Assembly (NCBI GenBank): GCA_016215705.1
Contig: JACRIR010000171.1
Coordinates: forward strand, 1 to 28,243
DNA from: Candidatus Poribacteria bacterium
GTDB lineage: Bacteria > Abyssobacteria > SURF-5
Direction of reading: 5' to 3'
Length of the DNA stretch: 28,243 bases
Under the pieces are notes generated by a model that was given only the letters and a program-made list of their open reading frames with translations, was not told the DNA's origin and searched no databases. This document shows, in pieces, positions 1,171 through 17,167 of the stretch. The first letter of the stretch is position 1. Each line of letters begins with the position of its first letter. The position numbers and the translations under genes were made by a program.

Positions 1171-3708
1171 ATGGTTATCTTCGGGAAGAAAAAGAAAGAT
1201 TTGCAAATTCGGACGCGCTTGCGTGAAAGGTACTTCTCCTTCAAGCAGATTCTGGACGCGAACAACGAAGTCCTCGAGCAGATGGCGGATATGAGGCATC
1301 GCCTGAATTTCGACGAGGGACTCGACATGGCATACGTTCGCGCCGCATGCACCTCCACAGCGGTAGGTGTTTTCCGCATCATCTCCAACCTGGGCAAGAT
1401 CACAGACTCGCAGGAAGATATTCTGTCGCAACGATTTGAGGAAATCACCCGCAGAATCTCCTCTTGTCTTGACCCGAAGGCGGAAACCGGTGGACAGCCG
1501 CTCGCGCTGTCGCTCGAGGAGATTGACGCCGGCAGCGAGTTTCTTGTCGGCAAGAAGATGGCGTCGCTCGCCGATCTTGTCCGGATTTCTTCTGCCAGAG
1601 TGCCCACCGGATTTGTGCTCACGACTGAGGCCCATCTGCTGTTTGTGAGGCGGAACGGATTGGAGCAGACGATAAACAAGGAACTGTTGCGACTGCGCGA
1701 AAGCAACGAGCGAGAACTCGATGCAATAAGTGAGACCATTCAGAATATGATTCTTGAAAAACCGGCGCCGGAGGAGATCGTCCGGGCGGCAGAGCCATAT
1801 CTCGATCGGATCGAAAAGCAGCATGGCAGGAACACGCGTTTCGCCCTCCGCAGCAGCGCGTCCGTCGAGGACCGGCCCGGCCAGTCGTTCGCGGGACAGT
1901 TTTCCACGTTTCTCAACGTCGTTCGGGAAGATTTCTATGAGCGCTACAAGCAGGTGCTCGCGAGCAAGTATTCGCCTCACGCCATTCTTTACAGGAAGAA
2001 ATTCGGCGGCGTGGATGAAAATATCCGTGTGGCCGTGGGATGTATGGTTATGGTTTCGCCACGGGCCGCAGGCATCGTGTTCACCCAGGACCCGCGCGGG
2101 TCACGTGACAGGATGGTGATAAACGCAGCGCCGGGCCTGGGAGCGCCTGTGAGCGACGGCTCGGCAATCGTGGATCAATTTCACGTTACGCGCTCGCAGC
2201 CGCTCACAATCAGGAAACGTTTCATCCCTGAGAAAAAGACAATGTGCGTCGAGAAACAGGGGGGCGGCGTGGCGGTTGTTGAAGTCCCTGCCGGGCTGCA
2301 AGCAAATCCCTGCCTGAGCGACGCGCAGATTTTCGAGATAGCCGGGACTGCGCTCTCGATTGAGCAGTATTACGGAACACCTCAGAATATTGAATGGGCA
2401 TATGACCACGAGGGAAGGCTGTTTATCCTGCAAAGCAGAGGACTTCAAATCGCGGAGAACCGCGAAATACCTTCCGAAGCCGTGCACGAAGAGAAAATCC
2501 TTGTGAGAGGCGGGCACGTTGCTTGCCCGGGAATTGCGACGGGCAAAGCATTTGTCGCCCATGATGTCGCGGAGGCAAGCGCCATTCCTTCCGGCGCCGT
2601 TCTCGTGATAAGGCAGACGTCTCCTGCTTACTCACGCGCGCTTTTGAAGGCATCGGCTCTTGTTTCGGATATCGGGGCTGTCACGAGCCACCTGGCGCTC
2701 ATCGCGGCGGAAATGGGGCTTCCGACAATCGTCGGCATGCGGGAGGCCACAACGCGGATACACCCGGGAGATACAATTACCGTTGATGCAGTGGAGGGAG
2801 TAATATACTCGGGAGAACCCCCTGTGCGCCCGCCGGAGACCGTTCGACCGCGACCATACTCCGACACTCATGTCTCAAGAATCGCCAGAGACGTCCTCAA
2901 ACACATAGCCGGACTGACTCTCACAAATCCGCAATCGCCCGCATTCAATGCCTCCGCCTGCAAGACATATCACGATATCACACGGTACGTCCACGAGGTG
3001 GCGATCCGCGAGATGTTCAAGATCAATGACAATGTCTCGGCGAGAACGGGAGTAGTGCGCCGGCTTGAGGTAGGCATCCCGCTTTCAATTTTCGTCATCG
3101 ACCTGACCGAGCGCGGAGAGGAGGCCGGCAAAGATAAGGTAAAACCTACCGACATCACATCGGTCCCCTTCCTGTCGCTGCTGGAAGGGATGTGCACGGA
3201 AGGAATACGATGGGCGGGCTTCGTGCCCATCGACATGAAGGGTTTTTTTTCGGTGATGGCCAACACTCTGTATGACCGCTATCAGGGCGACCGCGCTCTA
3301 GGCGAGGCCAGCTACGCCATAATTTCCGAGAACTACGTGAATTTCAGCTCGAGGCTCGCCTATCATTTTGCCACCGTAGATTCATATTGCGGCGAAGACC
3401 GCCACAGCAATTACATCACGTTCCGCTTCATGGGCGGAGGCGCCTCGATGGACAAGAAGACCCGGAGGGCACAGTTTATCAGCAAGGTTTTGAAAGCGCA
3501 TGAATTCCTCGTCGAGCAAAAAGAGGACCTCGTGAATGCAACTCTTCGGAAACGAACGTCAAAGGTCATCTGTGAGAAACTCGTCGTGCTCGGCCAGCTT
3601 ATGGGCGCAACGCGACAAATAGATGTGACCATGGTCAGCGACGCCCTTGTCGACCGGTACGTGCAGGAATTTCTTCGAGGCAATTTCACTCTGGGAATCA
3701 AACGGTAG
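1171..3708 (+). CDS. PEP-synthase-like phosphotransferase protein 1 (ATP-grasp + phosphohistidine domain)
   Basis: 845 aa, likely cytoplasmic. In order: a helical N-terminal region (about 1-130); a PEP-synthase/PPDK ATP-grasp region with the family signature around residues 223-245 (RFALRSSAS, then SFAGQFSTFLNV) and a closing PQNIEWAYDHEG...LQSRG block; a swivelling phosphohistidine domain with TSH at His507 (normally the phosphorylated His) followed by a GLPTIVG tail; and a C-terminal domain of about 250 residues beginning near the YHDITR motif (residue 600) that I do not recognise. The catalytic PEP/pyruvate TIM barrel of true PEP synthase or PPDK is absent, so it probably transfers phosphate from ATP to His and on to something else. 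Start choice: ATG 1171 has GGGAG at 1161-1165, while the upstream open frame translates intergenic repeat words. A paralogue lies at 4497-7046. A receiver gene follows after 30 bases. Substrate or partner unknown. Confidence 0.85.
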   Translation: MVIFGKKKKDLQIRTRLRERYFSFKQILDANNEVLEQMADMRHRLNFDEGLDMAYVRAACTSTAVGVFRIISNLGKITDSQEDILSQRFEEITRRISSCLDPKAETGGQPLALSLEEIDAGSEFLVGKKMASLADLVRISSARVPTGFVLTTEAHLLFVRRNGLEQTINKELLRLRESNERELDAISETIQNMILEKPAPEEIVRAAEPYLDRIEKQHGRNTRFALRSSASVEDRPGQSFAGQFSTFLNVVREDFYERYKQVLASKYSPHAILYRKKFGGVDENIRVAVGCMVMVSPRAAGIVFTQDPRGSRDRMVINAAPGLGAPVSDGSAIVDQFHVTRSQPLTIRKRFIPEKKTMCVEKQGGGVAVVEVPAGLQANPCLSDAQIFEIAGTALSIEQYYGTPQNIEWAYDHEGRLFILQSRGLQIAENREIPSEAVHEEKILVRGGHVACPGIATGKAFVAHDVAEASAIPSGAVLVIRQTSPAYSRALLKASALVSDIGAVTSHLALIAAEMGLPTIVGMREATTRIHPGDTITVDAVEGVIYSGEPPVRPPETVRPRPYSDTHVSRIARDVLKHIAGLTLTNPQSPAFNASACKTYHDITRYVHEVAIREMFKINDNVSARTGVVRRLEVGIPLSIFVIDLTERGEEAGKDKVKPTDITSVPFLSLLEGMCTEGIRWAGFVPIDMKGFFSVMANTLYDRYQGDRALGEASYAIISENYVNFSSRLAYHFATVDSYCGEDRHSNYITFRFMGGGASMDKKTRRAQFISKVLKAHEFLVEQKEDLVNATLRKRTSKVICEKLVVLGQLMGATRQIDVTMVSDALVDRYVQEFLRGNFTLGIKR

Positions 3709-3738
3709 CAGAAGGCGAAAGGGAGCGGATGAGCGACA

Positions 3739-4137
3739 ATGGGCTGCAGCGTGCTCGTCGTTGACGATGAGACAGAGTTCGCGAGAGACCTGAGCGGTCA
3801 GTTGAGGTCTTTCGGACACAGCGTCGATATCGCGTATGGAGGCGCGGAGGCGCTCGACATGCTCAAGCAGCGCGAGTATGACGTCGCGCTCGTGGATATG
3901 CTGATGCAGCAGATGGACGGAATGCAGACTGTGCGCGGAATCAGGAAGATGAGCCCATTGGTCGAAGTGATTGTCCTGACTGGACACGCCTCGATTACAT
4001 CGGGAATCGAAATCATGAAGCTGGGGGCCTTCGACTATCTCCTGAAGCCCTGCAGCATTGAGTTCCTCTCGAGGAAGATCGATGAAGCGTGTGAGAAGAG
4101 AGAGATGGCCCTCCAGAGAGCCGGCCGCGTGAAGTGA
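3739..4137 (+). CDS. stand-alone response regulator receiver domain protein
   Basis: 132 aa, essentially one CheY-like receiver. The acidic pocket is Asp9/Asp10, the phospho-acceptor is Asp53 (in ALVDMLMQQMDG, where the usual MPG after the Asp is replaced by MQQ), the switch Thr is Thr81 and the conserved Lys is Lys103 (LLKP). There is no output domain, only about 20 charged residues at the end, so it should act by protein contact or as a phosphate carrier. It starts 30 bases after the first PEP-synthase-like gene, with GGGAGCGG about 10 bases upstream, so the two are probably co-transcribed. Its natural donor may be the kinase at 7043-9316. Which partner it signals to is inference. Confidence 0.9.
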   Translation: MGCSVLVVDDETEFARDLSGQLRSFGHSVDIAYGGAEALDMLKQREYDVALVDMLMQQMDGMQTVRGIRKMSPLVEVIVLTGHASITSGIEIMKLGAFDYLLKPCSIEFLSRKIDEACEKREMALQRAGRVK

Positions 4138-4245
4138 AGCGCTCGTTCAGCCGTTTAGGGTTCCCGCTGTTATCCTGAGCAGCCGACCCCCTCTGCGTCA
4201 GGGTCATTTCGCGTTTCCTTGCACAGCCTATCCCCATGAGAAAAC

Positions 4246-4275
4246 TTGAATTACAACAACCGATAAAGATATAAT
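4246..4275 (+). promoter_or_regulatory. sigma70-type promoter upstream of the second PEP-synthase-like gene
   Basis: TTGAAT (4246-4251) and a perfect TATAAT (4270-4275) are separated by 18 bases, in a locally AT-rich stretch. Transcription would begin near 4282, giving a leader of about 215 bases before ATG 4497. This suggests the second half of the cluster (4497-11930) can be expressed separately from the first two genes. Confidence 0.5.
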
Positions 4276-4426
4276 AAAATGTTCTTGCGACTTGGCGGGA
4301 ATTTGTCCGGGCGATTCTCCATTGAGCCTTGCGAAATTGCAATTGCACCCCGAACCGGAACCCAGGCAATTGGCGGCCGGACAACTCCGAGGGTCTTGTG
4401 TCTTGTTCTATTGCAGGCCGGACAGC

Positions 4427-4455
4427 AAGAGATGCTTCGCTGCACTCGCAATGAC
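4427..4455 (+). repeat. dispersed GCTTCGCT...GCAATGAC repeat, copy 1
   Basis: The segment reads AAGAGATGCTTCGCTGC then ACTCGCAATGAC. Related copies occur at 15307-15331 and 15381-15412. This motif class is common between genes in several uncultured and subsurface bacterial lineages. It lies in the untranslated leader of the following gene. Confidence 0.5.
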
Positions 4456-4496
4456 AAACTACGTGCCCATGCCCCAATGGGAAAGTGCAGGACCAC

Positions 4497-7046
4497 ATGA
4501 AATGGCTTCGTAATGTTTTCCGGAGCGGGCAGGAAGAAGCCCATGCGAGCTTGAGAGCGCTGCACGAGAAGTTCAGTGATTTTCTCACACTCCTTGAGAC
4601 AAACAACCATGTCCTGAAGATAATCTCCGATATGGAAGAGAAGTCTCAAGGCGAATACCTTTTTGATATCAACTACATTCGTTCCAGCCTCGCCGAAGTG
4701 CGAATCGGCGTTCGCGAGATAATCGATAAAATGATCGCTCTCGGAGGAGAACCGTATGAGGCCCTCAGAGAGCAGTATGCGGCAATAGACGCCGAAATCG
4801 AGAAGGCTCTGCCGGGCAATCGGCGCATCGAGCGGGACGACTTCACAATCCCATTCGATAAGTTGGGCCGCGAGCGCGCATCAAGCGTCGGGAGCAAGAA
4901 CGCCCAACTCGGCGAGATGCGAAAACTCGGGCTGCCGACTCCGGATGGATTTGCAATCAGCGCATGGGCGTATAAATATTTTGTTGACGCAAATAGTCTG
5001 CAGGCGCGCATAAGCAAGCGCATCGAGTCGCTGGACATCAAACATTACAGTGACCTTATGCGAGTGAGCGAGGAAATTCGCGCTCTCGTGGTCTCGAGTC
5101 CGGTTCCGGATGAGCTTGCAGAGGCCATTCAGAAAAGCTACTCCGAGTTGTTCAAGGGGACTTCCTCAAGAAGGTTCTCGCTGCGTTCAAGCGCTATCGG
5201 AGAGGACACGCTGTTCAGCTTTGCCGGCCAGTACGCAACCTTCCTGAATGTAGGGGAAGACGAACTGATTGCGCGGTACCGAGAGGTGTTGGCAAGCAAG
5301 TTCACGCCACAGGCAATCTACTATTTTCTCAGCCATTCCTTGACTGAATCCGAGTTGGCCATGAGTGTCGGCTGCGTCGAGATGGTGGACGCCGCCTCGA
5401 GCGGAGTGGTCTACACGCGCGACCCCGTGAAACCGGAGAATGGATGCGTGCTCATAAACTCGATTTTCGGACTGGGCAAATACCTTGTGGACGGCACGCT
5501 CAGCCCCGATGTCTTTTGCGTGTCGCGCGACGACAAGACTCTCAGAGAGTCGCGCCTTGCGAAAAAAACAGTTCGCCTGACGGCTCCGGCTCAAGGGGGT
5601 ACAGTGGAGGAGTGCGTGCCCGACTCGATGCAGCAAACAGCCTCGCTCACGGAGGAGCAGGCAACGTTGCTTGCGGATTTTGCCCTGAGACTTGAAAAGC
5701 ATTACGGCGGACCGCAAGACATCGAATGGGCGATTGACCACGAAGGCAAGTTGTTCCTCCTTCAAACAAGGCCGCTCCGAATCGTGAGCCCGCGAACAAC
5801 AGCCGCTCCGCCCGACGTGTCAGGGTTCCGCCTCCTTATGGCCGGCGGAACTGTTGTTTGTCCCGGCGCCGGAAGCGGCCCCGTTTTTCACGTCGCTTCC
5901 ACCCAGGACCTTGCAAAAGTTCCGGACGGAGCGGTGCTTGTGGCGCCCCATCCGTTTCCCGGACTCATAACGGCAATAGGCAGGGCAAACGCGCTCGTCG
6001 CAAGGACCGGAAGCGTCGCCAGCCATATGGCAACCATAGCCCGCGAATATTGCATCCCGACGCTGGTCGGCCTCGAAGACGCAGGCGCGCTTCCTGCCGG
6101 CGAGTCCGTGACCGTTGACGCCACGGGAGCGGCGATCTATGCAGGAGCGCATCCGGAACTGGCTATGGCTCGTAGGCCGGAGTGCGAGCTGTTCGATGAT
6201 ACCGCAATTATCGGCCTGTTGAACAAGACCCTCATTCACATTTCTCCGCTTAATCTGGTTCATCCGGGCGATTCTGACTTCATTCCGCAAAGCTGTCGTA
6301 CGTTCCACGACATCACACGCTTCGCCCATCAGAAGGCGATGGAAGAAATGTTTTCGACCGGCAAGGATGTGAAGCACAAGGAGCGATTCAGCCTGCGTCT
6401 GAAAAGCGATATTCCACTTCAGTTGAACATCATTTATGTTGATCAGGACTTTTCGCAGTACGGCGGCAAAAGCCAGATCGGGGAAAATGAGATCGAGTCA
6501 ATCCCCATGAAAGCTTTTTGGGACGGTTTCCGAAAAGAAAAATGGCCGGTGCGTCCACCATCGGGCGATTTCAAAGGATTTGTGACCGTCATGACGAGCG
6601 GCATGACCGCGCAAGGGCAGCCGGAATTCTCCGAGAACAGTTTTGCGGTATTGAGCAAGGAGTATATGATACTCAGTCTCCGCATGGGTTTCCATTTCAC
6701 GACCATAGAGGCAATGTGTACGCAGGAGCCAAGCAAGAACTATATCCGCATGAAGTATAAGGATGGAGGAGCGTCCATAGACCGTCGCGTCCGCAGGATC
6801 AAATTGATCGTGGACGTTCTTTCAAAGATGGGTTTTGAGAACTCGAGTAAGGGCGACTTCCTTGACGCGATGATTTCGTACATAGGCGCAGACACTGTTT
6901 GCGAGAAATTGCGCTTGCTCGGGCGTATCAACATGATGACAAAACAACTCGATATGGCTCTCTCGAATGACGCCATCGCCGAATGGTACACCCGGGACTA
7001 CATCAAGAAACTCGGGTTACAGGACGCAAAGGATGGTGGCTCTTGA
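4497..7046 (+). CDS. PEP-synthase-like phosphotransferase protein 2 (paralogue of 1171-3708)
   Basis: 849 aa with the same architecture as its upstream paralogue: a helical N-terminus (about 1-125), an ATP-grasp region with FSLRSSAIGED (Arg230) and SFAGQYATFLNV, then PQDIEWAIDHEGK...LQTRP, a phosphohistidine domain with ASH at His510 and IPTLVG, and the unrecognised C-terminal domain starting at FHDITRF (His604). Key positions differ by only three residues between the two proteins, so they are ancient tandem duplicates with low overall identity. The PEP/pyruvate TIM barrel is again missing. ATG 4497 is preferred (AGGA at 4489-4492). A GTG four codons upstream at 4485 is possible. The stop overlaps the proposed TTG start of the histidine kinase, implying translational coupling. 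Likely a cytoplasmic phosphocarrier or regulator; substrate unknown. Confidence 0.85.
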   Translation: MKWLRNVFRSGQEEAHASLRALHEKFSDFLTLLETNNHVLKIISDMEEKSQGEYLFDINYIRSSLAEVRIGVREIIDKMIALGGEPYEALREQYAAIDAEIEKALPGNRRIERDDFTIPFDKLGRERASSVGSKNAQLGEMRKLGLPTPDGFAISAWAYKYFVDANSLQARISKRIESLDIKHYSDLMRVSEEIRALVVSSPVPDELAEAIQKSYSELFKGTSSRRFSLRSSAIGEDTLFSFAGQYATFLNVGEDELIARYREVLASKFTPQAIYYFLSHSLTESELAMSVGCVEMVDAASSGVVYTRDPVKPENGCVLINSIFGLGKYLVDGTLSPDVFCVSRDDKTLRESRLAKKTVRLTAPAQGGTVEECVPDSMQQTASLTEEQATLLADFALRLEKHYGGPQDIEWAIDHEGKLFLLQTRPLRIVSPRTTAAPPDVSGFRLLMAGGTVVCPGAGSGPVFHVASTQDLAKVPDGAVLVAPHPFPGLITAIGRANALVARTGSVASHMATIAREYCIPTLVGLEDAGALPAGESVTVDATGAAIYAGAHPELAMARRPECELFDDTAIIGLLNKTLIHISPLNLVHPGDSDFIPQSCRTFHDITRFAHQKAMEEMFSTGKDVKHKERFSLRLKSDIPLQLNIIYVDQDFSQYGGKSQIGENEIESIPMKAFWDGFRKEKWPVRPPSGDFKGFVTVMTSGMTAQGQPEFSENSFAVLSKEYMILSLRMGFHFTTIEAMCTQEPSKNYIRMKYKDGGASIDRRVRRIKLIVDVLSKMGFENSSKGDFLDAMISYIGADTVCEKLRLLGRINMMTKQLDMALSNDAIAEWYTRDYIKKLGLQDAKDGGS

Positions 7047-9316
7047 GCTCGATGATCGCGCGTCTTCGTGATATCGTCAACTACCTCCTCAACATCCGCA
7101 ACATGGTTGTAACGAGCTCGGTCCTTTTCTTTTTCACGGTCGGGGTGGCTTTCTTCATGATTTATCAGAATGCGGGCCTCATGCGCGACCAGATCAATGA
7201 TGACTTCAACGAACAGCAGCTCATTCTTGGCCGGCAGGCGGCGGCGCAGATTGACGCAATGCTTCACGACATAGAAATCGAAATGGAGAGCGTGAAGCGC
7301 CTGCTGGTTCAGGAGTCGGGCAAACCCCGCAGGGAGGCGATGCAAGCTGTGCTCGAGCGAACTCGCTCGAAGGGTCTGATGGAAATCGGTATAATGGATT
7401 CTGAAGGCCGAATAATAGAATCATACAGTGACGCCGACATTGCGAGGCCGGCGCCCTTGCCTGAAATGCGGGATGAATGCAAGGAGGGCGATTCGGCCCA
7501 CGTGGCCCTGGGCCCACTTCGCGTGTTGCAAATCGGCCCGGACCGATACATGGTTACGAGCGTCTTTTGCTCGCCGATAGCCTTTGAAGACGGTCACAAG
7601 GAGGTTCTCTTTGCGCGGGTAGACGTGTCGCGACTTGTGGCAAGCGTCACCGGAAACATTCGTTCCGGAAAGACGGGCTACGCATGGGTCATCGATGAGA
7701 AGGGAACGTTCCTATACCATCCGGAACAGGAATTTATCGGCATGAATGCCTTCACCGTGCGCAAGGAGCGCAAGCCCTACATCAGTTTTGTTCAGATCAA
7801 TCGCATCATGAAGGACAGTATGCTCAAGGGAGAAGAAGGCACGGCAACGTACGTGAGCGGATGGCACAGGGGCATTCAAGGCAAGATGACGAAGCTCATT
7901 GCGTTCACTCCGGTAAGAAGCGCTTCTCTTTCAGACGGCCACGCATGGGCGGTGGCGGTGGTGGCGCCTACGAGCGAAGTCGCCGAGGCCGTGCACAAGG
8001 TTTATAGCCGCCATATCAAGGCCGAGGCGGCGTTGATTGCGGGCATGTTCGTGTTCGGGGTGTTGGCTGCGATATATCATCAGCGCATATCTCAGGCGCT
8101 CAAGGAGCGAGTGAAGCGGACCGAAGCCGATTTGCAGGAGACGGAGCGCACCTACCAGCGCGTCGTGGAACAGGCGACTGACCTGATCTACATACTCGAC
8201 CCTGATATGCGCGTGGTCTTGCTCAACCGGCACACGATCCAGACTTTTTCGAACCTCGTGGTGACCGAGACTGAGGGGGGCGCAATTCCCGCAGACGCGG
8301 ACCTTACCCGGGCGGAGCTTTATGTGGGCCGCAGGCTCGACGAACTCTTCCGGCCGGTGGACGCCGCGTTCATGCGAAAGCAGATAGACAAAGTGCTGGA
8401 ACTCCGGTCAAGTCATTCTTACGAACACACGCTGGATATCAAAGGGCGCAGGATAAACCTCAACACCAAGTTGGTCCCTATACGTGGAGACCAGGACGAA
8501 GTACGCCAGATTCTGGGAATCAGCCGGGACGTAACCGAGAAACGCGAGATGGATCAGCGGATTTACAACACTGAGAAACTCGCGTCGATAGGAACGTTGG
8601 CGGCCGGCGTGGCGCACGAGATCAATAACCCGCTCGCGGTCATCCTGGGGTTCACTGACCTGCTCCTGGACCAATTCAAAGAGGGGGCCCCCGAATACGA
8701 AGACTTGAAGGTAATCGAGTACAATGCCAATAGCGCCAAGAAAATCGTGGAAAAGATGCTGGGGTTTGCCCGTATCACGGAAGGTTTGGAGGACACGGTA
8801 GACATATATCACAGCGTGGACACCGTCACTAACATCGTCAAGAACACACTCATGACAAAGAAAATCGATCTTGTTATGGACGTGCCGGAAAAACTGTCGC
8901 GAGTTCGCGGCGACCCGCGCGAGTTTCAGCAGGTCATTTTCAACCTTATCAATAACTCGGTCGCCGCTATGGAAGAAAAAGGGGGAACTCTGAGGCTATC
9001 CGCCACAGATGACAACGGCTGGGTGCATGTGAGCATTTCCGATACGGGAGTCGGGATTCCCGACAAGCTCAAACCGCAGATATTCGACCCGTTTTTCACG
9101 ACGAAGAAAGTGGGTGAAGGCACCGGACTGGGATTGTCACTGTGCTACGGCATTGTGAAGAAATACGGGGGCAAGATCAACTTTACGAGCACCAGCGCGC
9201 AGGATAACCCCAATATACCCAGTGGGACTACCTTCACGGTATCGATGCCGGTACAGATGCCCGTAGAATGGCGAAAGGAGGGGATGAATGAAGCAGCGAA
9301 TTCTCGCGGTGGATGA
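7043..9316 (+). CDS. membrane sensor histidine kinase (Cache-PAS-HisKA-HATPase)
   Basis: 757 aa. Membrane segment 1 (about 21-41) and segment 2 (about 329-346) enclose an extracytoplasmic Cache-type sensor with the family motif GKTGYAWVIDEKGTFLYHP near 208-226. Inside the cell follow a PAS domain (about 370-490), a HisKA domain with the phospho-acceptor His525 in AAGVAHEINNPLA, and a HATPase domain with N-box (FNLINNS), G1 (DTGVGIP) and G2 (GTGLGLS) motifs. There is no attached receiver. The start is uncertain: TTG 7043 overlaps the previous stop and has AAAGGA nine bases upstream, ATG 7052 is the alternative, and ATG 6983 would overlap by 64 bases. The gene overlaps the following response regulator by 29 bases. 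It probably senses a small organic ligand, as Cache kinases do, and phosphorylates the adjacent receiver proteins (inference). Confidence 0.92.
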   Translation: MSSMIARLRDIVNYLLNIRNMVVTSSVLFFFTVGVAFFMIYQNAGLMRDQINDDFNEQQLILGRQAAAQIDAMLHDIEIEMESVKRLLVQESGKPRREAMQAVLERTRSKGLMEIGIMDSEGRIIESYSDADIARPAPLPEMRDECKEGDSAHVALGPLRVLQIGPDRYMVTSVFCSPIAFEDGHKEVLFARVDVSRLVASVTGNIRSGKTGYAWVIDEKGTFLYHPEQEFIGMNAFTVRKERKPYISFVQINRIMKDSMLKGEEGTATYVSGWHRGIQGKMTKLIAFTPVRSASLSDGHAWAVAVVAPTSEVAEAVHKVYSRHIKAEAALIAGMFVFGVLAAIYHQRISQALKERVKRTEADLQETERTYQRVVEQATDLIYILDPDMRVVLLNRHTIQTFSNLVVTETEGGAIPADADLTRAELYVGRRLDELFRPVDAAFMRKQIDKVLELRSSHSYEHTLDIKGRRINLNTKLVPIRGDQDEVRQILGISRDVTEKREMDQRIYNTEKLASIGTLAAGVAHEINNPLAVILGFTDLLLDQFKEGAPEYEDLKVIEYNANSAKKIVEKMLGFARITEGLEDTVDIYHSVDTVTNIVKNTLMTKKIDLVMDVPEKLSRVRGDPREFQQVIFNLINNSVAAMEEKGGTLRLSATDDNGWVHVSISDTGVGIPDKLKPQIFDPFFTTKKVGEGTGLGLSLCYGIVKKYGGKINFTSTSAQDNPNIPSGTTFTVSMPVQMPVEWRKEGMNEAANSRGG

Positions 9317-9854
9317 CGAAATCCACATGCTCAGACTTCTGGAGCGAATCATTTCGGAGAAGACACCGTATCAGATAACGACGACGAACAATTCGCTCGA
9401 GGTGCCGGAGATTCTCGGTAAGGACCATTTCGACCTGATCATAACCGACCTGAAAATGCCGGGGATGGACGGCATCGATATTCTGCGGATGGTCAGGGAG
9501 AAGGGCCGGCCCGAAGAGGTGATAATCATTACCGCCTTCGGTTCATTGGAGACCGCGATCGAGGCGCTCTCGCGTGGCGTGTTCGATTACATCACCAAAC
9601 CATTCAAGAAGGAGCAGATAATCTTCACGGTCGACCGAGCGATGCGCTGGCAGAATCTCAAGAGAGAGGCCGCGCGAATGTCGGAGATTTTCAGCCGCGA
9701 GCCATACGAAAAAGCGCGTCGGGCTTTTGAACTGGAATACGTGCGGCTTCTCGCAGAGCGCTGCGGCGGAAGTGAGAGCGCAATGGCTGAGCGCTCGGGC
9801 CTGCCGCCTGATTTTATCAACGCCGCTATGAAGGAAAATGAGGAGAAACCATAA
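9288..9854 (+). CDS. response regulator, receiver plus degenerate Fis-type helix-turn-helix
   Basis: 188 aa. The receiver occupies about 1-125 with Asp9/Asp10, phospho-acceptor Asp54 (ITDLKMPGMDG), Thr82 and Lys104 (ITKPF). The C-terminal 45 residues (FELEYVRLLAERCGG then SGLPPDFINAAM) resemble the Fis-like DNA-binding tail of NtrC-family regulators, but the AAA+ sigma54-activator domain is missing and the recognition helix is atypical. It may bind DNA weakly or act by protein contact. A perfect AGGAGG lies six bases before ATG 9288, inside the kinase gene. Its stop shares one base with the next start (TAATG). Cognate partner of the kinase by position. Confidence 0.92.
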   Translation: MKQRILAVDDEIHMLRLLERIISEKTPYQITTTNNSLEVPEILGKDHFDLIITDLKMPGMDGIDILRMVREKGRPEEVIIITAFGSLETAIEALSRGVFDYITKPFKKEQIIFTVDRAMRWQNLKREAARMSEIFSREPYEKARRAFELEYVRLLAERCGGSESAMAERSGLPPDFINAAMKENEEKP

Positions 9855-10381
9855 TGGAATTGAAACGGGCAGGAAATATCATGATCCCTTTGGACAGATA
9901 TCCCCATATCCCATACTGGTTCACTTTGCGTCAGGCGATAGCGGAGATGGAGAAATCGGAACTGGAGACGAACGGCCGCAAGTCGTTGCCGCGCATTCTG
10001 CTGGTGTTTGACGAAGCTTACAAGCTCCTGGGAATGGTCCGTCGCCGCGACATCTTGCGCGGACTCGAGCCGAAGTTCTTGACGAGCGAGCCGCTCGAGT
10101 ATCGCAAGAAGCTGTTCAACGTCAAAGTGGACCCGACGCTTTTCGAGTTGTCATCGGAGAAAATGGTGAAGGGCATCCGCGAACAGGCTGAGCGCCCCGT
10201 CAGCGAAGTGATGCTCCCCATCGTGGCGACCGTGGATTACGCTGACAACATAATCAAAGTAATCTACGAAATGGTCGACAACAATGTGAGTTTGCTTCCC
10301 GTGCTGCAGGATCAAAAAGTCGTTGGTGTCGTGCGCTCTGTAGACGTGTTCCACGAAGCGGCCCGAATTCTGCTGGAATGA
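9854..10381 (+). CDS. CBS-pair domain protein
   Basis: 175 aa, soluble, two CBS motifs and nothing else. CBS1 spans about 5-75 (IMIPLDRYPHIPYWFTLRQA ... LLGMVRRRDILRGL) and CBS2 about 115-172 (VSEVMLPIVATV ... LLPVLQDQKVVGVVRSVDVF). Such pairs bind adenine nucleotides and regulate enzymes or transporters. The start overlaps the regulator stop by one base, and the permease starts 22 bases after the stop, so it is embedded in the operon. A role as nucleotide-responsive gate for the adjacent permease, or as a partner of the PEP-synthase-like proteins, is a reasonable inference but unproven. Confidence 0.88.
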   Translation: MELKRAGNIMIPLDRYPHIPYWFTLRQAIAEMEKSELETNGRKSLPRILLVFDEAYKLLGMVRRRDILRGLEPKFLTSEPLEYRKKLFNVKVDPTLFELSSEKMVKGIREQAERPVSEVMLPIVATVDYADNIIKVIYEMVDNNVSLLPVLQDQKVVGVVRSVDVFHEAARILLE

Positions 10382-10403
10382 AAACTGAGAAAGGATATTT
10401 CGT

Positions 10404-11930
10404 ATGGTGGAGGAGAGGAAGACTGCTGAACCCCGGCGGGGTGGCTTACCCCCCATGCCCGCCGACATATACCTGGCCAAACCAGTCAAGAGGATTGATT
10501 GGAGAAGGCTATTCTTCATTTTTCTTGGAATCGCATTGTTTGCCGTGGTTTACTTTTCGCCTCCCTGGCATGACGCAGTTGATCCTATGGGCAAGCATTT
10601 TGCATTGACGCGGGAAGGCAAAGCGGCGCTGGCATTGTTCGCGTTTACCATTGTTTGGTGGGTGTTCGAGGTGCTGCCCATCGGGGTGACGAGTGTAGCG
10701 GTCGCGGTGATTCAAGCGTTTTTTCTGATCCGGGACCCCAAGGCCGCCTTCACCGACTTTATGGACCCGTCGGTGTGGTTTATCTTCGGGTCTCTCGTGA
10801 TTGGGATGGCGTTCACGCGCACCGGCCTTACGCAGCGCCTCGCCTACAAGATGTTGAGCGTAGTGGGCGACCGCACGAGCATGATCTATCTGGGATGCTT
10901 CGGTATGATCGCGATTTTGACTCTAATGATGGCGCATACCGCGGTCGCAGCCACAGCGTTCCCATTATTCATGGCCGTTTACGGTCTCTATGAAGAGGAC
11001 TCCGTGCCCACGAAGTTTGGAAGGGGACTTTTTACCGGCATGGCATACACGTGCGGCGCCGGCAGCATTGTCACCCTGCTCGGTTCAGCGCGCGCGCCGG
11101 TGGCATTGGGCTTTTTCAAAGATATGGCAGGCCGCGAAATATCTTTCTTCGAGTTGACGTATTATATGCTGCCGCTCGGATGGGCGATGGTGCTCATGTT
11201 GTGGGGGCTTATGATGATTCTTAACAAGCCCGAAAAGAAGACCATTCCGGGTTTGCGTGAACGAGTGAAGGCCCTTAGCGCAAGACTCGGCCCCATGAAG
11301 CGCACCGAACTGCTTACACTGGTGATCGTTTTAGCGGCCATCACGGTAATGGCGCTCAGGTCATTCATACCGGCGCTCAAGCCGCTGGACAAAAGCGCCA
11401 TTATGCTCACTTGCACCGTCCTATTCTTTCTGCTCAAGATTCTTACGGTCAAGGACCTCGAAGAAATTCCGTGGAACATAGTTCTACTCTTCGGTGGAGC
11501 AATGAGCATCGGCTTTTGCCTGTGGCAGACAGGCGCAGCCAGTTGGATTGCGGTGCAATGGCTCGCCCTATTCCAGAAGGCGCCGTGGTTTGTCTTCGTT
11601 ATGGGCATAGCGTTCTTCGTCCTTGTCTTAACGAACTTCATCATGAATGTGGCTGCCATAGCGATCACGCTGCCCGTGGCGCTGGTGATTGCCCGGTACC
11701 TGGGCGTGGCGCCCGAGGTCATTATGTTTTCGTCGCTCGCAGCCGCGGGCATGCCGTTCATGCTCCTTATCGGACAAGCGCCCAACGCAATCGCCTATGA
11801 AAGCAAACAGTTCACATCGGGACAGTTCTTCATGATGGGCTTGCCCGCCACCATCATGATTATGGTCGTGCTCGGCATCTTCGTGTGGATCATTTGGCCG
11901 CTCATGGGGATGCCGATTCTGGCGCATTGA
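10404..11930 (+). CDS. DASS/SLC13-family permease (dicarboxylate/sulfate-type)
   Basis: 508 aa, with about 11-13 hydrophobic segments after a cytoplasmic N-terminus of about 35 residues. The overall pattern (ALFAFTIVWWVFEVLPIGVTS at the first DASS helix region, the SVWFIFGSLVIGMAF block, two inverted halves) matches the divalent anion:Na+ symporter family. The two Ser-Asn-Thr signatures that normally shape the Na+/substrate site are changed: the first region reads MMAHTAVAATAFPL and the second FIMNVAAIAITLP. Substrate and ion coupling may therefore differ from the studied citrate and succinate carriers. AAAGGA precedes ATG 10404 by eight bases. It is the last gene of the plus-strand cluster and ends 63 bases before a strong palindrome. 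Confidence 0.88.
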   Translation: MVEERKTAEPRRGGLPPMPADIYLAKPVKRIDWRRLFFIFLGIALFAVVYFSPPWHDAVDPMGKHFALTREGKAALALFAFTIVWWVFEVLPIGVTSVAVAVIQAFFLIRDPKAAFTDFMDPSVWFIFGSLVIGMAFTRTGLTQRLAYKMLSVVGDRTSMIYLGCFGMIAILTLMMAHTAVAATAFPLFMAVYGLYEEDSVPTKFGRGLFTGMAYTCGAGSIVTLLGSARAPVALGFFKDMAGREISFFELTYYMLPLGWAMVLMLWGLMMILNKPEKKTIPGLRERVKALSARLGPMKRTELLTLVIVLAAITVMALRSFIPALKPLDKSAIMLTCTVLFFLLKILTVKDLEEIPWNIVLLFGGAMSIGFCLWQTGAASWIAVQWLALFQKAPWFVFVMGIAFFVLVLTNFIMNVAAIAITLPVALVIARYLGVAPEVIMFSSLAAAGMPFMLLIGQAPNAIAYESKQFTSGQFFMMGLPATIMIMVVLGIFVWIIWPLMGMPILAH

Positions 11931-12069: not shown

Positions 12070-12780
12070 TCACTTTACGCTTAGGCCGGCAAGGTCATGA
12101 AAGCGTATCGCCATTTCAGGCGCTTTGCCTTCTTCCTCGTGCTTGAAGAAAACGAAAGCCCTTTCCCATTCTTGTGAAAAGATTCTTTCCATCCATTGCG
12201 ACAGATCGGCGTCCGTATAATCGGAGCGGCGCAGGCGCAAGTATCCCCATGACGCCGTACTGGTGATTTTATTTGTCGGATTCTCATCTGCATCTGCGAT
12301 GCACAGACTGCATCCCCTTTCACGAAGGAGGTCCAGAATTGCGGCATCGAGCCAGGACGGGTTGCGGAACTCGAATGCGCACGACACATTGCCATGAATC
12401 TCATCGAGAAAATCTTTCAACGCCGCTCGGTCCGCGCGGAAACTCTTCGGGAATTGAAAGAGAACCGGCCCCAGTTTCCTGTCCAGAACCGACAGAGTTC
12501 TGAAAAGGTAGCCGGTCTCCTCGCCCGCGTCTTTCAACCGCTTCACATGCGTTATGACCTGAGGCGACTTGAGCGCAAAGACAAAATCGTCGGGGACCTG
12601 TTCTGCCCATGATACGAGGACGCTCTCTTTGGGCATTCGATAGAAAGTATTATTGATCTCTACCACGTCGAAGCGTTCCGAATACGAGCGGAGCATTTCC
12701 TTGGGCGAGATTTTTTCAGGATAGAATTTCCCTTTCCACTCCTTATACGCATACCCGCTTGTGCCGACATAGATTTTCAT
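12070..12780 (-). CDS. DUF72 family protein (YecE-like TIM barrel)
   Basis: 236 aa. The start KIYVGTSGYAYKEWKGKFYP and the later VEINNTFYRMP, FALKSPQVITH, GPVLFQFPKSF, FEFRNPSW and WGYLRLRR blocks are diagnostic of DUF72/YecE, a TIM-barrel family of unproven activity. The length is normal for the family. ATG 12780 has AAGGAAGGTGAG directly upstream. It is the last gene of the minus-strand NHEJ operon, 12 bases after the ligase stop, and DUF72 genes are found near DNA-repair genes in other genomes. A repair-linked role is inference. Confidence 0.9.
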   Translation of the reverse strand: MKIYVGTSGYAYKEWKGKFYPEKISPKEMLRSYSERFDVVEINNTFYRMPKESVLVSWAEQVPDDFVFALKSPQVITHVKRLKDAGEETGYLFRTLSVLDRKLGPVLFQFPKSFRADRAALKDFLDEIHGNVSCAFEFRNPSWLDAAILDLLRERGCSLCIADADENPTNKITSTASWGYLRLRRSDYTDADLSQWMERIFSQEWERAFVFFKHEEEGKAPEMAIRFHDLAGLSVK

Positions 12781-12792
12781 AGCTCACCTTCC

Positions 12793-14346
12793 TTAATCCT
12801 CGCGCAGCCTTAAGAAAACGGGCTGCCTCATGACGGTGTCTTCAGTCCAGCCGGTAAAAGAAACCTCGCAGACCAGTTTCGGCTTTAACCAGGTGACCGG
12901 GGTATTGGTTTCCGGCCTCACCCTAAACGGACATTCTTTTTGAATCAGAGGTTCCAATTGTTCGCGAATTTCCTTCAGGTCTTTTGCAGTGAATCCGCTT
13001 CCGCAATGACCGATGTAGATCAGATCGCCCCGTTTGAATACGCCTAAGACGAGAGCGCCGAAATGTCTTCTGCTCCCTCGCGGTTCTGTGAATCCTGCGA
13101 TCACGCCCTCCTGAGTAAGCCGCGTCTTCACCTTCAGCCACCGCCGACTCCTTCTCCCCATCCTGTACGCGCTTTGAGAGTGTTTGGCAATGATCCCCTC
13201 GAGCCCTTTTTCTTTGGCGGCGTTGAAAAACAGGACGCCCTCTTTCCTTACGTGATCGCTGAATCTTATTTTCGGGGCGGCCGGGAGGATTCTTTTCAGG
13301 AGTTCCTTTCTCCCGAGCAGGGGCAGATTCGTCAGATCATGTCCCTGGAAGTATAGGAGATCAAAGGCGTAGTAGAGCAAATGTCCGCTCCCGGATTTTG
13401 AGTAATCCTGCAACATCTGGAAATCAGGACTTCCCTGATCATCTACCACAACAATTTCGCCGTCCAGAACGGCCTCGAATCTGAATTCGCGCAGCGCGTC
13501 CACAATAGGAGAGAACTTCCTACTTAACGAAATCAGGTTCCGTGAATAGAGCGAAACGTTCCCGTTCGCGATTTCAGCGATTGCGCGATATCCGTCCCAT
13601 TTCACCTCAAAAATCCAATCCGGATCATCAAACGGTTCTTTGACGAGGGTCGCGAGCATCGGTTTTATGCCGTGCGGCATTGGTCTGACCGGCGCATCCT
13701 TCAGGTCTTCGCTTTCCATCGCTTCCCGAAGACGGATTTGGTTTATCTTCTTTTTTCCGGAAGACGGCGTCGGTATGCCATCGGAAACCTCCTCCAGAGT
13801 TTTGCCGGACACTACGGAACGATTCTCCTTCAGGATTTCGCCATTGCTCGCATATTGGTCCTTTTTCTTCAAGAGCAGCCACGATTTCTCGTCCTTCCCC
13901 GTTTTCACCAGCGCAAATTCACCCCGGAGTTTCTCCCCCGCAATGACAAACTTCACATTCCCTTTTCTTAATCCTTCGAGAAGAAGCCTCTCACTGTCCT
14001 TTCTGTCTCTGGCGGAGGGGTGGTGATAAAAGCCCCTGTCCCAGATGATAACGCTACCGGCGCCGTAATTGCCTTCCGGGATAACGCCCTCAAAATCCCT
14101 ATAATCAAGCGGATGATCCTCCACCATAACGGCCAGTCTTTTTGTGGAAGGATTCATCGAGGGGCCCTTCGGGACAGCCCAACTCTTGAGAACCCCTTCC
14201 ATCTCGAGCCTGAGATCATAATGGAGCCTACGGGCGGCGTGTTTTTGAATAACAAAAATGAGATGGTTTGCCTCATGGCGAAGGCCCGGCTTCGGTTCGG
14301 GCGTCTTCTCGAATTGCCGCTTGGATTCGTATTCCTTTAGTTCCAT
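12793..14346 (-). CDS. ligD: LigD 3'-phosphoesterase + ATP-dependent DNA ligase
   Basis: 517 aa. The N-terminal phosphoesterase domain (about 1-165) keeps the metal-binding and catalytic residues His36, His42, Asp44 (KHAARRLHYDLRLE) and His78 (VEDHPLDYRDFEG). A linker leads to the ligase domain, with the nucleotidyl Lys249 in EVKWDGYR, then LDGEIVVVD, LEGIIAK and RWLKVKTR, and the C-terminal OB fold. It trims and seals ends in non-homologous end joining. The polymerase domain usually fused in LigD is a separate gene immediately upstream. ATG 14346 gives the usual family start (MELKEYESKR). GTG 14355, one base after the upstream stop, is the alternative. Either way the two genes are nearly contiguous and probably coupled. 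Confidence 0.93.
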   Translation of the reverse strand: MELKEYESKRQFEKTPEPKPGLRHEANHLIFVIQKHAARRLHYDLRLEMEGVLKSWAVPKGPSMNPSTKRLAVMVEDHPLDYRDFEGVIPEGNYGAGSVIIWDRGFYHHPSARDRKDSERLLLEGLRKGNVKFVIAGEKLRGEFALVKTGKDEKSWLLLKKKDQYASNGEILKENRSVVSGKTLEEVSDGIPTPSSGKKKINQIRLREAMESEDLKDAPVRPMPHGIKPMLATLVKEPFDDPDWIFEVKWDGYRAIAEIANGNVSLYSRNLISLSRKFSPIVDALREFRFEAVLDGEIVVVDDQGSPDFQMLQDYSKSGSGHLLYYAFDLLYFQGHDLTNLPLLGRKELLKRILPAAPKIRFSDHVRKEGVLFFNAAKEKGLEGIIAKHSQSAYRMGRRSRRWLKVKTRLTQEGVIAGFTEPRGSRRHFGALVLGVFKRGDLIYIGHCGSGFTAKDLKEIREQLEPLIQKECPFRVRPETNTPVTWLKPKLVCEVSFTGWTEDTVMRQPVFLRLRED

Positions 14347-14356
14347 GTTACACACG

Positions 14357-15262
14357 TCATAGATGAGGAAGTTTCTGTTTTTTCACGGTTACCTCTCGAA
14401 AGAGGTCACCGTTCTTTTCGACTCTGTTTACGGCTTCCGAATACATGACGCAGAGCTTTTCCGGGTCGTCCTGCCCGGCTGAATTCTCCAGTTCCTCCCA
14501 TGCAAGGGGAAACGAAACAACAGGTTTTTCGCCGGCCCGCAAGGAATAGACGCATATCATCGTCTTTGAAGAATCGTTTTGAGACCAGTCGATGAATACC
14601 TTTGCTTTCCGCTCTTTCTTTGCCATTTTTGCAGTCACCATATCCGGATAATTCTTCTGCATGATTTCCGCCACGGCCCTTGAGAATCTCTTGGTATCCT
14701 CAAAGGTTGTCTCTTTGCGGTTCAAGGGCACATATAGATGGAGTCCTTTCTTGCCCGAGGTCTTCACATAGCTTGTAAGCCGTAACCGGGAGAGCAGGTC
14801 CCGAATTATCAATGCCACCCGGGCGCAGTCAAGAGTATTTGCCTCCTCGCCGGGGTCCAGATCGAAGACCATGGAGTCGGCTGTCTCAGGAGAACCGGCC
14901 TTGGCCAGAGGCACATGGAGCTCAAGAGACGCGAGGTTCTCCGCCCACATCAGCGTTTCAAGATCGTTGACCAGGCAAACCGTCATTCGCTCTCCCCCAT
15001 CCCGGCGCACCTCCGCTGTTTTCACCCAGGCCGGGCGATGAGAAGGACATCTCTTCTCGAAAAAGGAAACCTTTTCCACTCCTTCCGGATAACGCTTTAG
15101 GGTCAATGCCCGGTCTTTCAAATGAGGCAGGATGAACTTTGAAATCCGGCGGTAATACTCCAGGATATGGGCCTTCGTAAAACCGTAGGACGGATAGAGG
15201 TCCTTTTCAAGGTTCGACAAAGCGAGCCTTCGCTCCCCTATCTCGACAATTTTTCGGCTCAT
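14357..15262 (-). CDS. LigD-type polymerase/primase (NHEJ polymerase, stand-alone)
   Basis: 301 aa, an archaeo-eukaryotic primase-type polymerase. The catalytic Asp134 and Asp136 lie in MVFDLDPG, the nucleotide-binding motif is TSGKKGLHLYVPL (His175), and the third Asp is Asp225 in KVFIDWSQN. It fills gaps and adds ribonucleotides at broken ends. It covers the whole POL module of LigD and nothing more, so LigD is split into POL and PE-LIG proteins here. AGGAG lies five bases before ATG 15262. The ligase gene follows within 10 bases. Confidence 0.93.
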   Translation of the reverse strand: MSRKIVEIGERRLALSNLEKDLYPSYGFTKAHILEYYRRISKFILPHLKDRALTLKRYPEGVEKVSFFEKRCPSHRPAWVKTAEVRRDGGERMTVCLVNDLETLMWAENLASLELHVPLAKAGSPETADSMVFDLDPGEEANTLDCARVALIIRDLLSRLRLTSYVKTSGKKGLHLYVPLNRKETTFEDTKRFSRAVAEIMQKNYPDMVTAKMAKKERKAKVFIDWSQNDSSKTMICVYSLRAGEKPVVSFPLAWEELENSAGQDDPEKLCVMYSEAVNRVEKNGDLFREVTVKKQKLPHL

Positions 15263-15306
15263 CGGTTCTCCTAAATATAGAGGCGAAAGGGAAGAAACTC
15301 AAATAA

Positions 15307-15331
15307 AAGAGATTGCTTCGCTCCGCCCGCA
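15307..15331 (+). repeat. dispersed GCTTCGCT repeat, copy 2
   Basis: AAGAGATTGCTTCGCTCCGC starts this copy. The right end diverges (CCGCA in place of TCGCAATGAC). It is the closest of the three copies to the usual GATTGCTTCGCTCCGC form of the motif. Confidence 0.45.
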
Positions 15332-15380
15332 CAGAGGCGAAAGGCGAAAGGGCAAAAGCGAAAGGGAGAGAAGCCAAGAA

Positions 15381-15412
15381 AAAGAGGTTGCTTCACTCCG
15401 CTGGCAATGACC
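15381..15412 (+). repeat. dispersed GCTTCGCT...GCAATGAC repeat, copy 3
   Basis: AAAGAGGTTGCTTCACTCCG followed by CTGGCAATGACC. It has one change in the GCTTCGCT core and keeps the GCAATGAC end. It lies in the untranslated DNA between the Ku and polymerase genes. Confidence 0.45.
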
Positions 15413-15459
15413 ATAGTAGATTGAGCCTTCCCTTCACGATTAACCATGGCCCGCTGTGG

Positions 15460-16287
15460 TCAGGCGTTCTTCGCTTTCCGCATGCTCTTCTCCAGGGCCG
15501 CGACCAGATCGGCTGGACCTTCCCCTTCTTCCGCCTCTACTTCCGGCGACTCCACGGGAGTTTCTGCTTTCGCCATTTTTTTCAGAAGCTCCATGATTTT
15601 TTTCTGGCGCTCGTCCGCATATTTCCCGGGGTTAAAGTCCGCCATCATTTTCTTGATGCTTTTTTTCATACGGCTCTTGTCTTCGACATCGACCACTTCC
15701 TCCTTCGGGGAGATGTCTTCATCGGGGAGTATCTCCTGGCTGTAATGCAGCGTGTACAAAGCCAGCGCTCCTTCCCTGCTTTCAACGGCTACGAAATACT
15801 CACGCTCGCCCAGCACGAATTTTGCCAGCCCGGCTTTCTTTGTCCGATACATCACCTCCACCAGCAGTCGATAGGATTTCTCGCCCCCTTTCAAAGGAAC
15901 GAGATAGTACGGGTGATCATAGTAGATCGAATCCACTTCCTTCGTATCGATGAACTCGACAATCTCGATCGTGCGGCTCCGCTCGGGCGAAATGGATTCC
16001 AATTCCTCGTCCGTCAGCTCGATGTATTTGTCCGGCTCGATTTCGTATCCCCTGATAGTCTGTTCCGGGGGGACAATCTTTTCTCCTGCCGGACAGAACA
16101 TTTTTCTCGCGAGCGGAGAGTAGTCCTCGCTGTGAAGCATGCGAAAAGAGACGCGGCCGCTCTCGACGGCCTTAACCAACTGCACCGGAATCGCCACCAG
16201 GCTGAAACTGATCGTCCCGCTCCATATTCCGTGGGGAGATGTCTCATTCTCCCTGATTGATGACGACTTCGACTTATTCTTATTCAT
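15460..16287 (-). CDS. ku: Ku DNA end-binding protein, second in operon
   Basis: 275 aa. Prokaryotic Ku core: GIWSGTISFSLVAIPVQLVKAVE at the N-terminus, the CPAGEKIVPPEQTIRGYE block, IEIVEFID...IYYDHPYYLVP and KKAGLAKFVLGEREYF. The end is an acidic stretch (VEAEEGEG) and a basic tail (SMRKAKNA), where bacterial Ku proteins contact LigD. It forms the ring that holds broken ends. ATG 16287 is chosen because GGAGTG lies upstream. Extending to 16365 would translate the palindrome at 16312-16354. A second, diverged Ku gene lies immediately upstream. Confidence 0.93.
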   Translation of the reverse strand: MNKNKSKSSSIRENETSPHGIWSGTISFSLVAIPVQLVKAVESGRVSFRMLHSEDYSPLARKMFCPAGEKIVPPEQTIRGYEIEPDKYIELTDEELESISPERSRTIEIVEFIDTKEVDSIYYDHPYYLVPLKGGEKSYRLLVEVMYRTKKAGLAKFVLGEREYFVAVESREGALALYTLHYSQEILPDEDISPKEEVVDVEDKSRMKKSIKKMMADFNPGKYADERQKKIMELLKKMAKAETPVESPEVEAEEGEGPADLVAALEKSMRKAKNA

Positions 16288-16311
16288 GTGTGTCACTCCG
16301 CAAGTGTGGCT

Positions 16312-16354
16312 CTTAATTCGGGGACACCATGCGGCATGGTGTCCCCGAATTAAG
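16312..16354. repeat. REP-like perfect palindrome (21-bp arms)
   Basis: The arms 16312-16332 and 16334-16354 are perfectly complementary around a single central base. The core is AATTCGGGGACACCAT, a motif class repeatedly found as REP-type sequences mobilised by Y1/RAYT-type transposases in uncultured bacteria. It lies between the two Ku genes, inside the operon. No transposase is present in this window. The hairpin could cause partial termination or stabilise the upstream transcript. Confidence 0.75.
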
Positions 16355-16387
16355 GGCCGCCGCACGGTCGGATCGTGATTTCTTCAT

Positions 16388-17167
16388 TTAGGCCACTTTC
16401 TTCAGACTTGCTTCAAGGGCTTGAAGCAGCTTATCTGATGTTGTGGGCTTCAGGCGCTTGGGACGCGGAACCACAACTTGTTCTCCGCGCGCTTTCTTCT
16501 CGATCAAACGTTGCAGCTTCTTCTGGTGTTCGTCTTCGAATTTCTGCGGCTGAAAAGGAGCGGACAACTGATTGATGAGGTCGCACCCGATTTTCAGTTC
16601 CTTTTCAGACAAAGGGATTCTCTGAACTTTCTGTAGTTCGAGAGCGTTCACAGGAATCACTTCGTCGGCATACCGCAGAGTATTCAGGCGAAGAATCTTC
16701 CCGCTTGGCTGCAGCGCCCCGAGATACGACCGCTTTCGCATGGTCCACGTGCAGATACCCTCCACCTCCATCTCCTTCAACGCTCCGACAAGCGCGTTAT
16801 ATTCCTTCAATCGAGTATCCGGCTCCAGGTAGTAAACGCGATCAAAGAAGATGGGATCGATTTGGTCGGTTTCGACGAATTCGTGGACTTCGATCACCCG
16901 GCTGCTTTCAGGGACAGCCTGTTCGAGTTTTGAGGGATCGACGATGATGTATTTTCCATCCTCCACTTCAAACGCTTTGACCTGCGTTTCCGTAGGCGCC
17001 GGTTTTTTCTCATATGCGCAGACCATCTGTTGGCGCAATCTCACATGATCGCGTTTGTGAAGGAGGTGAAACTGAATCCGCTCTTCCTTGACTGCGGTAT
17101 GCAGCTTCACGGGAACATCCGTCTCCCCAAAGTGAATATATCCTTTCCACATCGTGCGTCCCGCCAT
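16388..17167 (-). CDS. ku: Ku DNA end-binding protein, first in operon
   Basis: 259 aa. Ku core: TMWKGYIHFGETDVPVKLHT at the start, FHLLHKRDHVRLRQQMVC, VIEVHEFVETDQIDPIFFD and YYLEPD, then WTMRKRSYLGAL and LRYADEVIP. The C-terminus is basic (RPKRLKPTT) with a final helix, unlike the acidic tail of the neighbouring Ku. The pair is strongly diverged, so they may form a heterodimer or act at different times. ATG 17167 has GGGAGGA upstream. It is the promoter-proximal gene of the minus-strand operon. Confidence 0.92.
   Translation of the reverse strand: MAGRTMWKGYIHFGETDVPVKLHTAVKEERIQFHLLHKRDHVRLRQQMVCAYEKKPAPTETQVKAFEVEDGKYIIVDPSKLEQAVPESSRVIEVHEFVETDQIDPIFFDRVYYLEPDTRLKEYNALVGALKEMEVEGICTWTMRKRSYLGALQPSGKILRLNTLRYADEVIPVNALELQKVQRIPLSEKELKIGCDLINQLSAPFQPQKFEDEHQKKLQRLIEKKARGEQVVVPRPKRLKPTTSDKLLQALEASLKKVA

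Follow-up and report, generated by a model that had tools for sequence, protein, structure and literature searches.

What do proteins resembling phosphoenolpyruvate (PEP) synthase do in an operon of signalling and transport genes? The question is raised by a 28,243-nucleotide contig (JACRIR010000171.1, assembly GCA_016215705.1; hereafter the window, meaning this whole stretch of DNA) from a Candidatus Poribacteria bacterium of the Abyssobacteria lineage SURF-5, in which two PEP-synthase-like proteins, PEPL1 and PEPL2, are encoded together with a lone receiver (REC1), a sensor histidine kinase, a response regulator, a tandem CBS-domain protein, and a DASS-family permease (Table 1). The module is real and widespread. 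Our best explanation, to which we give roughly even credence, is that the PEPLs are ATP-charged phosphohistidine proteins that, in concert with two-component receivers, act on a secondary anion transporter. Such a module would join two published and unexplained observations, namely, the nitrate-resistance cluster of Desulfovibrio and the DASS/CBS/two-component cluster of sulfate reducers.

An earlier note on this DNA, made from its letters alone, had described two PEP-synthase-like paralogues with ATP-grasp and phosphohistidine domains and no PEP/pyruvate barrel. The description holds: Pfam recognizes PPDK_N and PEP-utilizers in both proteins, whereas PF02896 is unmatched, and the coordinates and residue numbers, including His507 (PEPL1) and His510 (PEPL2) in the swivel-domain motif, are correct. 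The PEPL2 histidine, which is residue 510 counted from ATG 4497 and 514 counted from GTG 4485, aligns onto the phosphohistidine of solved PEP synthases. The two proteins are distant paralogues (31% identity). In 77 full-length homologues, PEPL1 among them, the swivel histidine is invariant (H510 in PEPL2 numbering, used throughout), as are K134, R230, and E410 of the ATP-grasp domain. The region of approximately 290 residues that follows the swivel domain is a conserved third domain, in which H604, D605, R608, H611, H733, R767, and D819 are invariant in the same 77 proteins and some of these residues are only nearly invariant in a wider set of 89 third domains. Pfam holds no such family, and a search of the third-domain sequence profile against the PDB found nothing. 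The helical N-terminal region (approximately 110 residues) is conserved as well and has no family assignment. The AlphaFold model of full-length PEPL2 (pLDDT 89) matches the solved structures of PEP synthase, rifampin phosphotransferase, and pyruvate phosphate dikinase (PPDK), and the third-domain model has high confidence values (pLDDT 87, pTM 0.78). Comparison of the third-domain model with solved structures gave no clear match with Foldseek (best 2plg_A, E 9.7e-4 but TM 0.23) and a best Z of 6.9 with VIA-align, inside the unspecific range of that tool; a fold assignment was dropped on these values. The result is a sequence definition (ATP-grasp, swivel histidine, and new third domain) for a widespread, unnamed family and a tie between that family and transport.

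The ATP-grasp motif PQ[D/N]IEW carries N in PEPL1 and D in PEPL2 and PEP synthases. This substitution would fit proteins that have lost phosphate transfer and retained the fold as an allosteric scaffold for sensing ATP or AMP, as would the CBS domains encoded in the same operons, since such domains commonly bind adenosine nucleotides. We consider this explanation very improbable, because the invariance of the catalytic lysine, arginine, and glutamate and of the swivel histidine across the 77 homologues is unlike a decaying enzyme.

The scan for third-domain relatives of PEPL2 used alignment A4 and was thereby biased toward PEPL2-like proteins; a whole-genome survey and control regions were therefore added. 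The scan yielded 80 named loci from Zixibacteria, Acidobacteria, Deltaproteobacteria, Ignavibacteria, Nitrospirae, Latescibacterota, Omnitrophota, and others, among them a Candidatus Abyssobacteria SURF_17 contig (L069), and a search in the phylum of genome G041 (three genomes) added nothing. The exact order PEPL2-HK-REC-CBS-DASS (HK, histidine kinase; REC, receiver) is found at eight loci, the window included, spread over at least four phyla (Abyssobacteria, Zixibacteria, Acidobacteria, and Ignavibacterium), and further loci keep it with one gene truncated or missed by simple gene picking. Among 33 PEPL2-like loci with sufficient downstream flank, a same-strand two-component gene is present in 28 and a CBS gene in 21. 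The earlier note had made its proposal depend on homologues not occurring mostly without the kinase or permease; in the named set, two-component genes lie within 6 kb of PEPL in 79 of 95 cases and a DASS or TauE permease in 61 of 95, and the homologues therefore do not mostly lack these partners. At the same distance in the whole-genome and family sample, DASS/TauE permeases lie near 14 of 23 PEPL genes versus 2 of 20 control regions (Fisher p 0.0006) and two-component genes near 19 of 23 versus 7 of 20 (Fisher p 0.002), p values to be read in light of the many sampled loci that come from one family and are hence nonindependent.

Three parts of the original picture changed, one of them the organic-acid substrate considered further below. 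DASS, named there as the permease partner, is so only in part: at some loci the unrelated TauE/SafE permease takes its place, and some CBS-DASS cassettes have no PEPL. The PEPL pair did not hold up as a unit. PEPL2-type proteins usually occur without a PEPL1, and in the tree the neighbours of PEPL2 are DASS-CBS-linked and TauE-linked proteins, whereas PEPL1 joins TauE-linked proteins (local support 0.93); the candidate reading of the pair as a conserved unit was rejected on these loci and this separation. The tree positions imply that the two window paralogues are old and that the permease type changes while the association of PEPL with two-component genes stays.

Gene fusions argue for contact at the protein level among receivers, CBS domains, and the permease, and between PEPL and a TauE-associated membrane protein. 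A receiver is fused to the N-terminus of DASS on contig C97 of the window's own genome (691 aa; L235 4704-6776) and in a sister genus (G001, 704 aa; L236 6998-9109); in the family sampled around genome G025 no such fusion was found, the long DASS there having a different N-terminus without a Pfam match. Receiver-CBS proteins are encoded at L083, L200, and L228, and fusions of a cytidylate-kinase-like domain to a receiver at L080, L084, L104, and L228, in the same type of neighbourhood. At L059 (4906-8292), downstream of a TauE gene, an Alph_Pro_TM membrane protein is fused to the N-terminus of PEPL.

Published mutants bear on function. In Desulfovibrio vulgaris, isolated insertion mutants in DVU0251 (TauE), DVU0250, DVU0247 (a lone receiver, 360 bp), and DVU0246 (PEP-like) grew equally with and without 100 mM nitrate, whereas the mutant in the phosphatase gene DVU0245 showed no such nitrate-indifferent growth, and a leaky thiosulfate transporter was proposed (Korte et al. 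2014, PMC4001038). This cluster (DVU0251-DVU0245 / Dde_0597-0605) resembles the window in that a lone receiver, a kinase, and a permease are encoded next to a PEP-like protein; it differs in having TauE/SafE and a PtxB-like binding protein in place of DASS and CBS, a single PEPL, and a dual-specificity phosphatase (DSP) at its end. The arrangement TauE-hyp-PtxB-HK-REC(~119 aa)-PEPL-DSP recurs in the G025 family with gene sizes similar to those of the Desulfovibrio cluster. Over 739 alignment columns, third domain included, the PEPL of the G025 locus L136 (gene order PtxB-HK-REC-PEPL-DSP) is 32% identical to PEPL2; that locus has no adjacent TauE, and the gene-order comparison drew on other genomes of the family. 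If DVU0246, which is assigned to the PEPL family through gene order and gene sizes and not through its own sequence, indeed belongs there, then a single transport-related trait requires PEPL, the lone receiver, and the permease alike. The mutants thus suggest that PEPL-type proteins may be needed for the permease to work; the shared phenotype fits a regulatory role and would not readily be explained by a downstream metabolic enzyme. How output-less receivers act on transporters can be tested directly in strains for which mutants exist.

The fusions and mutants also bear on whether PEPL might be a metabolic or regulatory protein merely under common transcriptional control with the kinase, receiver, and permease, with no coupling at the protein level. 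The CBS-DASS cassettes without PEPL fit such common control, as do the approximately one-third of PEPL loci that have neither DASS nor TauE within 6 kb, some of them cut by contig ends. Nevertheless, adjacency and order are maintained across phyla and permease types, the Alph_Pro_TM-PEPL fusion links PEPL physically to a membrane protein, and the mutant of an output-less lone receiver shares the phenotype of the PEPL and TauE mutants (PMC4001038), all of which make common control alone distinctly improbable.

The explanation that we prefer, of PEPL as a phosphohistidine protein acting on the transporter, builds on an observed layer of domains, conserved residues, conserved gene order, and fusions. 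Judging from its domains, the Cache-PAS kinase would sense an external or periplasmic signal and phosphorylate the receivers. From homology and the conserved residues, the PEPL swivel histidine is predicted to be charged by the ATP-grasp domain, which would consume ATP and give off AMP and Pi in the manner of PEP synthase and rifampin phosphotransferase. The charged swivel domain may then dock on the third domain and pass onward a phosphoryl group or a conformational signal, and PEPL, with the receivers and the CBS pair, would determine how active the DASS or TauE permease is; in parallel, the receiver with the HTH-like (helix-turn-helix) tail may adjust transcription. The earlier suggestion of a phosphohistidine branch tied to the permease thus gains from adjacency across phyla, fusions, and the published mutants (PMC4001038), while the PEPL pair as the conserved unit falls away and DASS becomes one of two permease types.

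DASS orthologues (61-77% identity) were found in 9 of 386 sampled genomes, 6 of them among the 12 genomes with PEPL (p 1.7e-8), three of these six being the window's own genome and its family; DASS adjoins PEPL in four of the six. A CBS gene lies directly upstream of DASS in all nine; in three of them (G001, G008, and G373) the CBS-DASS pair is surrounded by two-component genes, with no PEPL nearby. From the constant CBS gene and the DASS genomes without PEPL we conclude that CBS and DASS make up the constant core, to which PEPL is an addition.

Several points weigh against the preferred explanation, beyond the shared family of many sampled loci and the indirect assignment of DVU0246. Genomes G008, G373, and G286 carry the DASS orthologue with no PEPL detected, so that PEPL is not essential to the DASS permease, and the proposition that DASS requires PEPL was rejected. 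Phosphotransfer is a prediction for every PEPL member. The invariant set of histidine, arginine, and aspartate residues in the third domain looks like an active site, and the characterized relatives that we found phosphorylate small molecules (pyruvate, rifampin, and hydroxyphenylethanones; PMC4844700, PMC12167813). PEPL could accordingly be a small-molecule dikinase for the imported solute or a metabolite made from it, with the acceptor bound by the third domain: PEP synthase, rifampin phosphotransferase, and HpeHI all hand phosphate to a small acceptor (PMC4844700, PMC12167813), H604, D605, R608, H611, and H733 of the third domain are invariant, and the adjoining permeases fit uptake followed by activation. 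We nevertheless regard a dikinase, the strongest of the rival explanations, as rather unlikely, since two unrelated permease families alternate beside related PEPLs, no recurring catabolic enzyme was seen in the cassettes (a limited set of families being labelled), and the fusions link receivers, CBS domains, permease, and membrane protein, not PEPL with metabolic enzymes. Moreover, loss of DVU0246 protects against nitrate as loss of TauE does (PMC4001038), an effect not obviously expected from losing a metabolic kinase that acts downstream.

Table 1. Features of the PEPL operon in the window (aa, amino acids).
Feature	Position	Strand	Description	Basis
PEPL1	1171..3708	+	845 aa; helical N-terminal region; ATP-grasp 125-431; phosphohistidine swivel domain 472-543 (His507); third domain ~555-845	Pfam, alignments, tree
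REC1	3739..4137	+	Lone receiver, 132 aa, without output domain	Pfam Response_reg 91 bits
PEPL2	4497..7046	+	849 aa from ATG 4497 (853 from GTG 4485); helical N-terminus; ATP-grasp; swivel domain with His510; third domain with conserved H604 D605 R608 H611 H733 R767 D819	Pfam, alignment, AlphaFold model
PEPL2 third domain	6171..7043	+	~290 aa	Alignments, AlphaFold model
Sensor histidine kinase	7043..9316	+	dCache-like periplasmic region, PAS_4, HisKA, HATPase_c	Pfam
Response regulator	9288..9854	+	Receiver and weak Fis-type HTH tail, 188 aa	Pfam
Tandem CBS-domain protein	9854..10381	+	175 aa	Pfam CBS, two stretches
DASS-family permease	10404..11930	+	508 aa	NCBIfam TIGR00785, ortholog alignment

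The overlapping starts and stops reported from 7043 onward are present at the PEPL2/kinase, kinase/receiver, and receiver/CBS junctions. REC1 starts 31 bases past the PEPL1 stop. The kinase frame is open from ATG 6983, and its start TTG 7043 overlaps the PEPL2 stop at 7044-7046; the kinase end (9316) overlaps the receiver start (9288), the receiver end coincides with the CBS start (9854), and a gap of 22 bases separates CBS from DASS. The lone receiver, kinase, second receiver, CBS pair, and DASS permease named before were all recovered, two of their domains less firmly: dCache_1 in the kinase scored 36.3 bits, under the Pfam cut-off of 45, and the HTH of the regulator matches weakly to the Fis type, HTH_8 scoring 13-19 bits in four orthologues versus a cut-off of 22. 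The permease scores above the curated cut-off of TIGR00785 (207.4 versus 198.6 bits) and matches Pfam Na_sulph_symp; in the ortholog alignment a GGLPPMP motif near its N-terminus is conserved, and AHT and MNV occupy what we take to be the positions of the SNT motifs.

Positions 1-141 of the window are the exact reverse complement of the end of C97 (C97 1-141, L234) and occur on no other contig. As such a unique match resembles a one-k-mer assembly overlap, C97 probably lies directly upstream of the window. Besides the receiver-DASS fusion, this contig encodes the two remaining PEPLs of the genome that have a third domain, three TauE proteins, Alph_Pro_TM, a CBS protein, a cytidylate-kinase-like BON protein, and several kinases and receivers; with C97 upstream, the four PEPL genes detected in the genome would share one region of approximately 60 kb. 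The stretch at 100-1150, upstream of PEPL1, has 57 partial matches elsewhere in the genome and is probably a dispersed intergenic repeat. Beyond the operon, positions 12070-17167 hold an end-joining repair cluster (a DUF72 protein, two consecutive Ku genes, and LigD in the form of separate genes for ligase/phosphoesterase and primase-polymerase). Positions 21022-27381 encode a 2119-residue protein with KaiC-like and AAA ATPase matches; before it come an ankyrin-repeat protein (17562-19040) and then an MFS transporter (19122-20477).

The permease substrate is best approached from the host. The genome encodes AprA above the cut-off and a dsrA-like fragment at two contig ends, which together indicate that the host is probably a dissimilatory sulfate reducer; a sulfur anion is then at least as likely a substrate as the organic acid considered in the earlier note. 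These genes fit sulfate without proving it, and to our knowledge the Ignavibacteria and Anaeromyxobacter hosts of the same cassette are not known as sulfate reducers. The closest described counterpart is the DASS-type transporter cluster of Desulfosarcina and other sulfate reducers, to which sulfate has been assigned as substrate (Sci Adv 2025, PMC11887813). Like the window, it combines CBS proteins and response regulators with a DASS permease and sensor kinases; its kinases are of the Cache type, which the dCache_1 match below cut-off may indicate for the window kinase too. The main text of that paper does not mention PEP-like proteins; at the Desulfococcaceae locus L073, PEPL stands between kinases and CBS-DASS. 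How sulfate and thiosulfate uptake is controlled has a bearing on oil-field souring and sediment carbon turnover.

Among enzymes, PEP synthase and PPDK share the ATP-grasp and swivel domains with PEPL (31% identity over 458 columns; fold match to 2ols), and both PEPLs match PF01326 and PF00391. Unlike those enzymes, PEPL1 and PEPL2 have no Pfam match to the C-terminal PF02896 barrel, and their third domain has neither a sequence relationship nor a clear match in fold; NCBIfam PEP synthase models cover only the first two-thirds of both proteins, and TIGR01418 matches PEPL1 over residues 113-557 only (314 versus 740 bits). Rifampin phosphotransferase and the HpeHI dikinases are, like PEPL, barrel-less phosphotransferases with ATP-grasp and swivel histidine, yet the histidine domain of rifampin phosphotransferase is C-terminal (His825, PMC4844700) and that of PEPL central, and the NCBIfam model NF041857 gives 239 and 218 bits against a cut-off of 999. 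Enzyme I of the phosphotransferase system (PTS) is set apart by its barrel, its PtsI model matching just the mobile-domain region of PEPL1 (464-546), and neither HPr nor enzyme II was found among the window proteins scanned. As a tentative possibility, well short of an even one, the module may be an ATP-driven counterpart of PTS-type regulation, in which ATP-charged phosphohistidine proteins with a new acceptor domain, together with receivers, gate DASS and TauE/SafE transporters directly in many phyla of mostly anaerobic bacteria.

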